The notes under the pieces were generated by a model. It was not told where the DNA came from. It did no database searches and saw only the letters and a list, made by a program, of their open reading frames with translations. Shown one piece after another: positions 31,885-35,000 of a stretch of DNA of 64,000 bases; positions within the stretch are counted from its first letter, which is position 1; the number at the start of each line of letters is the position of its first letter. The stretch comes from Pseudomonas sihuiensis. GTDB taxonomy: Bacteria > Pseudomonadota > Gammaproteobacteria > Pseudomonadales > Pseudomonadaceae. The translations under genes and the position numbers were made by a program. The stretch spans positions 4,464,001-4,528,000 of the forward strand of contig NZ_LT629797.1 of NCBI RefSeq assembly GCF_900106015.1, given 5' to 3'.

Positions 31885-33039
31885 ATGGCTGTTGCCTCCA
31901 GCGCCTACAAAAAAGCCCTCGAGGGAGATCAGACACCCAAAGAGGTGCTGGTCAAGATCGATCGGGTGACCAAGAAGTTCGACGAGACCGTGGCGGTCGA
32001 CGACGTCTCGCTGACCATCAACAAGGGCGAGATCTTCGCCCTGCTCGGTGGCTCCGGCTCCGGTAAATCCACGCTGCTGCGCATGCTCGCCGGCTTCGAG
32101 CGGCCGACCGAAGGGCGCATCATTCTCGATGGTGTCGACATCACCGACATGCCGCCGTACCAGCGACCGATCAACATGATGTTCCAGTCCTATGCGCTGT
32201 TCCCGCACATGACCGTGGCGCAGAACATCGCCTTCGGCCTGCAGCAGGACAAGCTGCCCAAGGCCGAGATCGACGAGCGCGTGGCCGAAATGCTCAAGCT
32301 GGTGCATATGACCCAGTATGCCAAGCGCAAGCCGCACCAGCTCTCCGGCGGCCAGCGTCAGCGCGTGGCTCTGGCACGCTCACTGGCCAAGCGTCCGAAA
32401 CTGCTGCTGCTCGACGAGCCGATGGGCGCGCTGGACAAGAAACTGCGTTCGCAGATGCAGCTGGAGCTGGTGGAAATCATCGAGCGCGTCGGCGTGACCT
32501 GCGTAATGGTGACCCACGACCAGGAAGAGGCCATGACCATGGCCCAGCGCATCGCCATCATGCACCTGGGCTGGATCGCCCAGACCGGTAGCCCGATCGA
32601 TATCTACGAGACGCCGACCAGCCGCCTGGTGTGCGAATTCATTGGCAGCGTCAACCTGTTCGACGGGCAGATCGTCAGCGACGAGGCCGACCACGCGATC
32701 ATCGATTGTCCGCACCTGGACAAGCCGATCTACATTGGCCACGGCGTCAGCACCCGTGCCGAGAACAAGTCCGTCAGCTACGCCCTGCGCCCAGAAAAAC
32801 TGCTGATGGCCACCGCCTTGCCGGCCGACCACGAGCACCCCGAGTACAACTGGAGCCGTGGCCACGTGCACGACATCGCCTACCTCGGTGGTCACTCGGT
32901 GTACCACGTCAAGCTCACTTCCGGGCAGATCGTGCAGTGCTTCATCGCCAACGCCGAGCGCCGCGGCAAGCGCCCGACCTGGGACGATCCGGTGGTGGTG
33001 TACTGGGAAGACGACAGCGGCGTGGTACTGCAATCATGA
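31885..33039 (+). CDS. spuF: Polyamine ABC transporter ATP-binding protein
   Basis: 384-residue PotG-type ATPase. Walker A GGSGSGKST (about residue 55), Q-loop MMFQSYALFPHMTV, signature LSGGQRQRV, Walker B LLLLDEPMGALD and H-loop VTHDQEEAMT are intact, and a C-terminal TOBE regulatory domain begins near residue 290. It powers polyamine import through SpuG-SpuH. Its stop overlaps the spuG start (ATGA). Confidence 0.95.
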   Translation: MAVASSAYKKALEGDQTPKEVLVKIDRVTKKFDETVAVDDVSLTINKGEIFALLGGSGSGKSTLLRMLAGFERPTEGRIILDGVDITDMPPYQRPINMMFQSYALFPHMTVAQNIAFGLQQDKLPKAEIDERVAEMLKLVHMTQYAKRKPHQLSGGQRQRVALARSLAKRPKLLLLDEPMGALDKKLRSQMQLELVEIIERVGVTCVMVTHDQEEAMTMAQRIAIMHLGWIAQTGSPIDIYETPTSRLVCEFIGSVNLFDGQIVSDEADHAIIDCPHLDKPIYIGHGVSTRAENKSVSYALRPEKLLMATALPADHEHPEYNWSRGHVHDIAYLGGHSVYHVKLTSGQIVQCFIANAERRGKRPTWDDPVVVYWEDDSGVVLQS

Positions 33040-33944
33040 AACCGAGCAAACTGGCGCGCTATCTGCCCACTGGGCGGCATGCCGTTATCGGCATACCCTT
33101 CCTCTGGCTGTTCATGTTCTTCCTGCTGCCCTTCATCATCGTGCTGAAGATCAGCTTCGCCGAAGCCGACGTGGCGATTCCGCCCTATACGGAAATCTAC
33201 CAGTGGGCGGACAACAAGCTGACCCTGCTGCTGAATTTCGGTAACTACATCTTCCTCAGCGAAGATGCCCTGTACCTGTCGGCCTACCTGGGTTCGCTGC
33301 AGATCGCCTTCTTCAGCACCTTGCTCTGCCTGGTGATCGGCTACCCGATGGCCTATGCCATCGCGCGGGCGCCGAAAGAGCACCAGACGGTACTGCTGCT
33401 GCTGATCATGATGCCGACCTGGACTGCGATCCTGATCCGCGTCTATGCCTGGATGGGCATTCTCGGCAACAACGGCCTGCTCAACAGCCTGCTGATGGGT
33501 ATTGGTCTGATCGATACGCCGCTGCAGATCCTCAACACCAACACCGCGGTCTATATTGGCATCGTCTATTCGTACCTGCCGTTCATGATCCTGCCGCTCT
33601 ACGCCAACCTGGTGAAGCACGACCTCAGCCTGCTGGAGGCCGCCTCTGACCTGGGTTCGAGCAACTTCAACAACTTCTGGAAGATCACCGTGCCGCTGTC
33701 GAAGAACGGCATCATCGCCGGCTCGATGCTGGTGTTCATTCCGGTGGTTGGTGAATTCGTCATCCCCGAACTGCTCGGCGGCCCGGAGACCCTGATGATC
33801 GGCAAGGTGCTGTGGCAGGAGTTCTTCAACAACCGCGACTGGCCGGTGGCTTCCGCCCTGGCGGTGGTGATGCTGGCGATCCTGATCGTGCCCATCATCC
33901 TGTTCAACCGTAACCAAGCTAAAGAGCTGGAGGGCCGGCCATGA
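33036..33944 (+). CDS. spuG: Polyamine ABC transporter permease, PotH type
   Basis: 302 residues with six membrane helices; the ATPase-docking EAA loop is LLEAASDLGSSNFNNFWKIT near residue 200. The ATG overlaps the spuF stop. The C-terminus ends FNRNQAKELEGRP, and the last 23 coding bases (GCTAAAGAGCTGGAGGGCCG and onward) are the same as the 3' part of the 86-bp repeat units that follow. The stop codon overlaps the first repeat ATG. Confidence 0.94.
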   Translation: MKPSKLARYLPTGRHAVIGIPFLWLFMFFLLPFIIVLKISFAEADVAIPPYTEIYQWADNKLTLLLNFGNYIFLSEDALYLSAYLGSLQIAFFSTLLCLVIGYPMAYAIARAPKEHQTVLLLLIMMPTWTAILIRVYAWMGILGNNGLLNSLLMGIGLIDTPLQILNTNTAVYIGIVYSYLPFMILPLYANLVKHDLSLLEAASDLGSSNFNNFWKITVPLSKNGIIAGSMLVFIPVVGEFVIPELLGGPETLMIGKVLWQEFFNNRDWPVASALAVVMLAILIVPIILFNRNQAKELEGRP

Positions 33945-34030
33945 CTGATCTAATCGCAATGAGCCCGTCATCCTGTTCAACCGGCTTTTTAACCAGACGC
34001 GTGGCTAAAGAGCTGGAGGGCCGGCCATGA
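33941..34030 (+). CDS. 29-residue micro-ORF 1, coupled to spuG
   Basis: ATG 33941 overlaps the spuG stop (ATGA) behind GGAGGG seven bases upstream. The product starts MTDLIAMSPSSC and ends VAKELEGRP, repeating the spuG C-terminus. Its own TGA overlaps the next ATG. It may exist only to relay ribosomes, and no function for the peptide is proposed. Confidence 0.4.
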   Translation: MTDLIAMSPSSCSTGFLTRRVAKELEGRP

Positions 34031-34112
34031 CTGATCTAATCGCAATGAGCCCGTCATCCTGTTCAACCGGCTTTTTAACCAGACGCGTGGCTAAAGAACT
34101 GGAGGGCCGCCC
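33941..34112 (+). repeat. Two tandem 86-bp repeats between spuG and spuH
   Basis: Unit 1 (33941-34026) and unit 2 (34027-34112) differ at two positions only (GAG/GAA and CCGGCC/CCGCCC). Each unit ends with a copy of the spuG 3' end plus the GGAGGG ribosome site and begins with ATGA. The section TCATCCTGTTCAACCG also recurs from spuG, so the unit is a duplication of the spuG end joined to extra sequence. Confidence 0.95.
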
Positions 34113-34116
34113 ATGA
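34027..34116 (+). CDS. 29-residue micro-ORF 2, coupled to spuH
   Basis: Second copy of the micro-ORF with identical predicted residues (both base changes are silent: GAG/GAA and CGG/CGC). It starts in the ATGA of micro-ORF 1 and ends in the ATGA that contains the spuH start. Confidence 0.4.
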   Translation: MTDLIAMSPSSCSTGFLTRRVAKELEGRP

Positions 34117-35000
34117 AGCGTTTCAGTTTCTCCAGCATCATGCTCTGGGCTGGCCTGATCTTCATCTACCTGCCCATGGTCATCCTGGTCATCTACTCGT
34201 TCAACGCCTCGCGGCTGGTAACGGTGTGGGGCGGCTGGTCGGTGAAGTGGTACGTCGGTTTGCTCGACAACACCCAGCTGATGAACTCGGTGATGCGCTC
34301 GCTGGAAATTGCCTGCTACACCGCCATCGCGGCGGTGGCGCTGGGCACCCTGGCGGCCTTCGTGCTGACCCGCATCACCCACTTCAAGGGACGCACGCTG
34401 TTCGGTGGTCTGGTTACCGCGCCGCTGGTGATGCCGGAAGTGATCACCGGTCTGTCGCTGCTGCTGCTGTTCGTGCTGATGGCACAACTGATCGGTTGGC
34501 CGATGCAGCGCGGCATGACCACCATCTGGATCGCCCACACCACCTTCTGCTCGGCCTATGTGGCGGTGGTGGTGTCATCGCGTCTGCGTGAGCTGGACAT
34601 GTCCATCGAAGAGGCGGCCATGGATCTGGGAGCGCGGCCGTGGAAGGTGTTCTTCCTGATCACCGTGCCGATGATCGCACCGTCGCTGGCAGCGGGCGCG
34701 ATGATGTCCTTCGCCCTGTCGCTGGACGACCTGGTGCTGGCCAGCTTCGTCTCCGGTCCGGGTTCGACCACCCTGCCGATGGAGATCTTCTCCGCCGTGC
34801 GCCTGGGGGTTAAGCCGGAGATCAACGCGGTGGCCAGCCTGATCCTGCTGGCGGTGTCGTTCGCCACCTTCCTGGCCTGGTTCTTCGCCCATCGCGCTGA
34901 GGAAAAACGCAAGAAGGCCTTGCAGCAGGCCATGGACGAGACCACCAGTCCGTCCTGGCAGCAGGTCGTCGACAGCCGTCGCAGCACCAGCAGCAACTGA
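34113..35000 (+). CDS. spuH: Polyamine ABC transporter permease, PotI type
   Basis: 295 residues, six helices, EAA loop IEEAAMDLGARPWKVFFLIT near residue 165. Pairs with SpuG. ATG 34113 overlaps the stop of micro-ORF 2 and has GGAGGG seven bases before it, the same arrangement that would have joined spuG to spuH directly before the repeats arose. The original terminator after the gene is split by an insertion. Confidence 0.94.
   Translation: MKRFSFSSIMLWAGLIFIYLPMVILVIYSFNASRLVTVWGGWSVKWYVGLLDNTQLMNSVMRSLEIACYTAIAAVALGTLAAFVLTRITHFKGRTLFGGLVTAPLVMPEVITGLSLLLLFVLMAQLIGWPMQRGMTTIWIAHTTFCSAYVAVVVSSRLRELDMSIEEAAMDLGARPWKVFFLITVPMIAPSLAAGAMMSFALSLDDLVLASFVSGPGSTTLPMEIFSAVRLGVKPEINAVASLILLAVSFATFLAWFFAHRAEEKRKKALQQAMDETTSPSWQQVVDSRRSTSSN

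Follow-up and report, generated by a model that had tools for sequence, protein, structure and literature searches.

Coupled micro-ORFs at the spuG–spuH joint of Pseudomonadaceae: a probable translated relay between two permease genes

Between two coupled permease genes of Pseudomonas sihuiensis, spuG and spuH, lie two 86-bp units whose 29-codon frames most probably act as a translated relay, carrying terminating ribosomes from spuG to spuH. We regard the units as a likely translated bridge because all 57 inserted joints in our set are crossed without a break although most of the peptide drifts, and the most likely reason for the frames to stay open is that translation of spuH requires termination-reinitiation.

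The repeated joint in Pseudomonas sihuiensis

The window, by which we mean the whole stretch of 64,000 nucleotides that was analysed, is part of a 5.48-Mb single-contig genome. Read 5′ to 3′, three solute-binding protein genes and an ABC ATPase gene are followed by two permease genes of family PF00528, according to the ORFs and Pfam. The operon is predicted to encode a polyamine transporter; polyamines are the presumed substrate, and the names spuF, spuG and spuH are putative ones that follow the preliminary description and gene order. The nearest named relatives of the window's SpuG are found in Pseudomonas sp. 8O (99%) and in P. mendocina PSB00032 and P. composti (96%).

As the preliminary description had it, two 86-bp units occupy positions 33941-34116, and the ORFs and the repeat search agree that each carries a 29-residue micro-ORF. 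Both micro-ORFs encode the same peptide, MTDLIAMSPSSCSTGFLTRRVAKELEGRP (29 aa), and its AKELEGRP end is also the C-terminal end of SpuG, a likeness that had been pointed out. The two 86-nt copies delimited by the repeat search are 100% identical, and the two differences that had been called silent fall in the 27-nt third copy, where both are indeed silent (GAG/GAA and CGG/CGC). A 21-nt stretch of spuG recurs at 95% identity in each unit, so the unit holds pieces of spuG's own 3′ end. Three ATGA overlaps join spuG, the two micro-ORFs and spuH into four coupled frames, as proposed earlier; the 4-nt (or 1-nt) stop/start overlap by which ATGA termination-reinitiation pairs are recognized is thus present at all three joints of the window, and the distance from GGAGG to ATGA is the same at each. 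The window contains two occurrences of a 23-mer taken from the unit, with 0 of 100 shuffles giving a match at up to three mismatches, and a 251-nt query found a single place across the whole P. sihuiensis genome.

Table 1 Genes, micro-ORFs, repeat copies and joints of the locus, in positions of the window
Feature	Position	Strand	Basis
spuF-type ATPase gene (ATGA joint to spuG at 33036-33039)	31885..33039	+	sequence, ORF, Pfam
spuG-type permease gene (BPD_transp_1)	33036..33944	+	ORF, Pfam PF00528
spuG segment, 95% copy in each unit (33963-33983, 34049-34069)	33890..33910	+	repeat family D4
First 86-bp copy (spuG end and most of unit 1)	33918..34003	+	repeat search
GGAGG Shine-Dalgarno (SD)-like site 5′ of micro-ORF 1, within spuG	33929..33933	+	sequence, pattern match
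Micro-ORF 1, 29 codons and stop	33941..34030	+	ORF list, chain verified; ATG start
ATGA overlap spuG/micro-ORF 1	33941..33944	+	sequence, ORFs
Second 86-bp copy	34004..34089	+	repeat search
GGAGG 5′ of micro-ORF 2, within micro-ORF 1	34015..34019	+	sequence, pattern match
Micro-ORF 2, 29 codons and stop	34027..34116	+	ORF list, chain verified; ATG start
ATGA overlap micro-ORF 1/micro-ORF 2	34027..34030	+	sequence, ORFs
Third copy, 27 nt, joint only (AKELEGRP end, SD-like site, ATGA)	34090..34116	+	93% identical, repeat search
GGAGG 5′ of spuH, within micro-ORF 2	34101..34105	+	sequence, pattern match
ATGA overlap micro-ORF 2/spuH	34113..34116	+	sequence, ORFs
spuH-type permease gene (BPD_transp_1)	34113..35000	+	ORF, Pfam

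Inserts at coupled joints among relatives

Relatives were searched for two occurrences of GGAG-8 nt-ATGA spaced 68-98 nt apart, with any spacing within that range accepted and no open frame required. Within the genus, 49 of the 398 genomes gave a match, and 27 of these 49 hold a spuG–spuH unit, 26 with both genes located and one (G269) through a 99% match running to the end of a contig. A draw from the family gave matches in 42 of 248 genomes, and 20 of the 193 genomes outside the genus carry a spuG–spuH unit with both genes located. When the order was drawn upon, 9 of 194 genomes matched; three (G000, G113 and G411) belong to Pseudomonadaceae, and the loci of the six from other families, which were covered by the pattern search alone, yielded no spuG–spuH pair. 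At least six more inserts (L221, L224, L227, L241, L242 and L243) were present in 44 genomes of 13 genera lacking a pattern match at the joint, and GTGA replaces ATGA in three of these six. The unit starts of L241-L243, from genus g6, are GTGA and not ATGA.

Units stand at the spuG–spuH joint in seven Pseudomonadaceae genera (g1, g6, g9, g10, g12, g15 and g16), in 0, 1 or 2 copies per joint and in forms of 77 to 86 nt. A spuG–spuH pair was present in 258 of 293 loci, which gave 205 distinct joints and, after four paralogous joints were dropped, 201: 57 with an insert and 144 without, the latter having a 4-nt (141) or 1-nt (3) overlap and possibly including a few paralogues. Inserts are over-represented in this set, since loci with a pattern match were fetched deliberately.

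At all 57 inserted joints, coupled ORFs lead from spuG to spuH without interruption, 61 ORFs in total and none with an in-frame stop; because of kinship by descent the 57 do not count as independent events. The relay ORFs are 26, 27, 28, 29, 40 or 83 codons long and start with ATGA (58) or GTGA (3). Every insert is built of pieces of 77, 80, 83, 86, 119 or 248 nt, all of them 2 mod 3, so that the early remark on a unit length that preserves the ATGA joint extends to the whole set. Among the 60 distinct relay ORFs, frame +1 has a stop in 36 and frame +2 also in 36, and letter-shuffled unit cores are open half of the time. With 156 core differences and 0.038 stops per random substitution, about six stops were expected and none was observed. 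Since the search itself demanded SD-like sites and ATGA at the ends, the inserts found by the pattern are a test of length and open frame alone; the inserts found without it, in the named loci and the six pattern-missed loci, follow the rule too, ends included. Inserts that we take to be REP-like from their palindromic look are relayed as well, whether as a 119-nt piece alone (L221), after a unit (L175) or as a piece inside a unit (L014). As a control, the gap between spuE and spuF, which do not overlap, takes 33 distinct values in 78 of the 80 named loci, with residues 0, 1 and 2 mod 3 in 11, 12 and 10 of them; this uncoupled gap in the same operon follows no mod-3 rule.

In the proposed relay, ribosomes would terminate and then restart at each ATGA, and the micro-ORFs would bridge the gap in two or three 4-nt steps. 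A bare gap of 82 or 168 nt would be expected to uncouple spuH, given that in E. coli a 38-nt gap lowered reinitiation by 80-90% in two gene pairs and eliminated it in another, as reported in the portion of PMC10666635 cited here, which also states that the last 15 nt of the upstream gene suffice for reinitiation. Overlapping gene pairs are described in an excerpt of PMC6728339 as coupled, with the SD contributing in most, and the E. coli pair bioBF appears in that excerpt as showing no coupling. Selection would presumably purge inserts that break the chain, SpuG and SpuH being partner permeases; the enrichment for complex subunits among overlapping pairs, mentioned in the cited part of PMC10666635, suits such a pair. 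From the conservation of the chain we infer that spuH depends on upstream translation, and de novo initiation on spuH may be an alternative to coupling. Gain and loss of units would proceed by recombination between the repeated joints, for which direct repeats would offer an easy path.

A second joint, judging by its reading frames, has found the same relay solution. There, a gene of enoyl-CoA-hydratase type is followed by one of biotin-carboxylase type, presumably liuC and liuD, and the loci of 30 of the 36 genomes searched were read (L294-L323), the other six being left out. Inserts are present in nine genomes (loci L294-L300, L320 and L322; G109, G380, G060, G180, G377, G287, G316, G265 and G123), four of them picked by the pattern and five without it, and in every one of the nine a single ORF spans the insert, its joints being -4, -1 or +2 nt. 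Seven contain a copy of the upstream gene's own tail and SD, as identified by eye, and two are REP-like with 49 codons; the joint of P. sihuiensis itself (L314) has no insert. At a joint before an ETF-domain gene (PF01012), the five inserts examined (L033, L049, L143, L155 and L156) are all relayed; their selection relied on the pattern, in which the ends are set but the frame is free, and a sixth row (G008:C7) was left out. These five are of two palindromic kinds, with an ORF of 23-30 codons, a TGATG joint upstream and ATGA downstream. Elsewhere, at G006:C96:84894-85104, pattern matches each with GGAG and ATGA lie 39 nt apart; this spacing is a multiple of 3, so they probably belong to an in-frame protein repeat.

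A wider generalization would be that relay ORFs arise and are lost time and again in Pseudomonadaceae, at tightly coupled operon joints that are unrelated to one another, out of gene tails or REP palindromes, with the peptide irrelevant, frame and stop-start joints everything, and the number of steps a heritable dial of the partner ratio. We offer it tentatively and think it rather improbable as a whole.

Copy number and alternative readings

Unit number differs between close relatives at the species level, with one genome per species, which is the mark of a VNTR. At 94.3-97.0% spuGH identity to the window genome, L062, L010 and L009 have no unit and L004, L003 and L052 have one, and the window has two; L145 (93.7% spuGH identity) has the 77-nt form, with spuG's native frame kept. 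On a tree of both genes, some branches of which are weakly supported, insert presence changes at least 36 times. The suggested expansion and contraction of the repeat is therefore seen between species, and the idea of the same two units everywhere does not hold for the sibling genomes, where the count is 0, 1 or 2.

Added to the relay, an adaptive dosage dial is conceivable though unlikely: some ribosomes would be lost at each step, 0, 1 or 2 units would set SpuH below SpuG, and the number would be selected. Copy numbers of 0, 1 and 2 among relatives at 94-97% spuGH identity, the presence of units in seven genera, and reporter work that often gives reinitiation below 100% (in the sections of PMC6728339 and PMC10666635 used here) agree with it, and from the sequences copy number is a plausible setter of the SpuH:SpuG ratio. 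However, the patchiness, with at least 36 changes, fits neutral repeat turnover equally well, and 144 of the 201 joints lack units.

It is very unlikely that the unit is an RNA element, that is, a hairpin or anti-SD controlling spuH. Many single units fold, hairpin columns pair at 0.64 in register against 0.22-0.53 in eight slid registers, and SD pairing slightly exceeds that of shuffled cores in 77-nt units (0.85 vs 0.78) and in 83-nt units (0.75 vs 0.66). On the other side, partition-function SD pairing of the 86-nt units is hardly above that of shuffled cores (0.85 vs 0.83) and equal to that of unit-free joints, the 80-nt units lie below their shuffled cores (0.59 vs 0.80), and two-sided changes number 5 in register against 12 and 14 in the slid registers -4 and -3. 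Covariation above the slid controls, the mark of a structured RNA, was not found in the units. The unit hairpin was rejected as the main explanation, being the best of nine registers yet without covariation, as was SD masking by a 5-pair helix of unit columns 45-49 with the SD columns (92% paired), which partition-function pairing did not bear out. Because predicted SD pairing is 0.83 without units and 0.85 with 86-nt units, the units do not seem to raise the dependence of spuH on coupling. At insert-free joints, SD pairing is 0.83 against 0.76 with shuffled spuH starts, and is higher in 101 of 134; the start of spuH (34113-34157 in the window, and the same place in relatives) pairs with the SD and may favour dependence on coupled ribosomes.

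We give equally little credence to a dispersed mobile repeat of the MIRU kind inserted at the joint. The distribution is patchy, as such a repeat would have it, and MIRUs are said in the cited part of PMC12548453 to enter at start codons, leaving a joint of -4 nt. Yet the unit has a single place in its own genome, the only genome searched for this; it holds spuG's own tail, as the liuC–liuD-type units hold that of their upstream gene; and unit divergence tracks spuGH divergence (Mantel r 0.46, n 36, 0/2000 permutations).

Still less probable is a functional small peptide, such as a subunit of the transporter or a nascent chain that senses polyamines. In 21 disjoint pairs, two of them within one genome, unit core differences by codon position number 50/52/54 with a pN/pS of 1.06, and spuG tails in the same set give 24/9/78 and 0.05. 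A second pairing of 25 pairs gave 1.25 for the core and 0.23 for the last 8 codons, with 0.03 and 0.07, respectively, for spuG; pairs in these calculations are not fully independent. Purifying selection on the peptide is thus not seen in the core, the last 8 codons being the exception. In 33 of 54 units these last 8 residues are the same as the end of the SpuG encoded next to them, and they may have a peptide role, but such a constraint is expected where the SD sits, and could stem from conservation of the SD or from exchange with spuG. Against a peptide stand also the substitution of REP-like sequence for the unit (L221) and the middle of the unit, which is read in two frames across species (STGSPS type and LFNRLS type), making the peptide wholly different while its length and ends persist. 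Since the core varies freely across species, the two silent differences in the window are no sign of peptide selection, and a Pfam search of the micro-ORF returned no family. As far as sequence comparison can tell, what persists is the open frame with its joints, whereas most of the peptide is free to change; this is not the behaviour of a peptide gene, and in this respect the preliminary description is to be corrected.

Concerted evolution of the units with their own spuG tail is suggested by the comparison of 53 units, in which shuffled pairing reached the actual one in 0 of 10000 trials, a result confounded by relatedness. When the closest relative whose tail differs served as the comparison, the own spuG was better for the inner segment in 24 cases, worse in 8 and tied in 4; for the last 24 nt the figures of 27 better, 21 worse and 6 ties are not clear.

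There is next to no chance that an assembly artefact made the doubling: although contig C50 of the 99% identical relative G269 breaks inside the repeat, it does so 49 nt into a second unit whose start the break itself needs, and this, together with the two units each of G001 and G482 (mutually diverged by 6 and 7 core differences), means that the doubling is not peculiar to the P. sihuiensis assembly, single units moreover standing at dozens of distinct joints.

Significance and comparison with known systems

The joint provides a natural experiment on translational coupling, with dozens of inserts of related and unrelated sequence in one place, all translatable, and by contrast an uncoupled gap in the same operon that drifts through all frames. 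It points to a natural class of ORF whose translation appears to be selected and most of whose peptide does not, and it cautions catalogues of small proteins that a conserved ORF is not the same as a conserved peptide. The joints with 0, 1 and 2 units are a ready series for measuring ribosome survival per reinitiation step. Among titles and abstract starts of the open-licence literature, we recognized no account of spuG–spuH inserts or of relay ORFs formed by tail duplication.

The closest known kind of element is the mycobacterial MIRU, reportedly described by Supply et al. in 1997, an example being the senX3-regX3 locus. The cited part of PMC12548453 presents MIRUs as repeats, apparently mobile, whose insertion at a start codon couples their ORF at -4 nt; they are likely retained because the gene is then hardly disturbed. 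The spu units resemble them, by the same partial source, as short repeats at an operon joint with an internal ORF, and the unit ORF has the -4 nt coupling to the adjoining gene. MIRUs are mobile and occur in many mycobacteria, whereas the spu units, compared with them by description only, are confined to a single locus and built of the preceding gene's tail; dispersed copies were looked for in G000 alone, where one place was found. Because of this one place in their own genome and the neighbouring gene's tail inside them, we do not class the spu units as MIRUs.

Like ATGA termination-reinitiation pairs, as outlined in excerpts of PMC6728339 and PMC10666635, the window joints have a 4-nt overlap, an SD in the upstream ORF and likely partner subunits; unlike those gene pairs as far as outlined, the spuG–spuH joint has a pair of additional ORFs stacked in it, whose peptide core is not conserved. 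Integron ORF-11 and the short ORFs in attC sites are similar in that translation, not the peptide, serves the next gene, but they are part of a recombination site, whereas the spu units are a gene-tail duplication (PMC8876359, in the part cited). Bicistronic design leaders likewise couple a short ORF to the following gene; in the cited portions of PMC5995908 and PMC12548453 these leaders are engineered and come first, whereas the spu micro-ORFs sit between two coupled genes.
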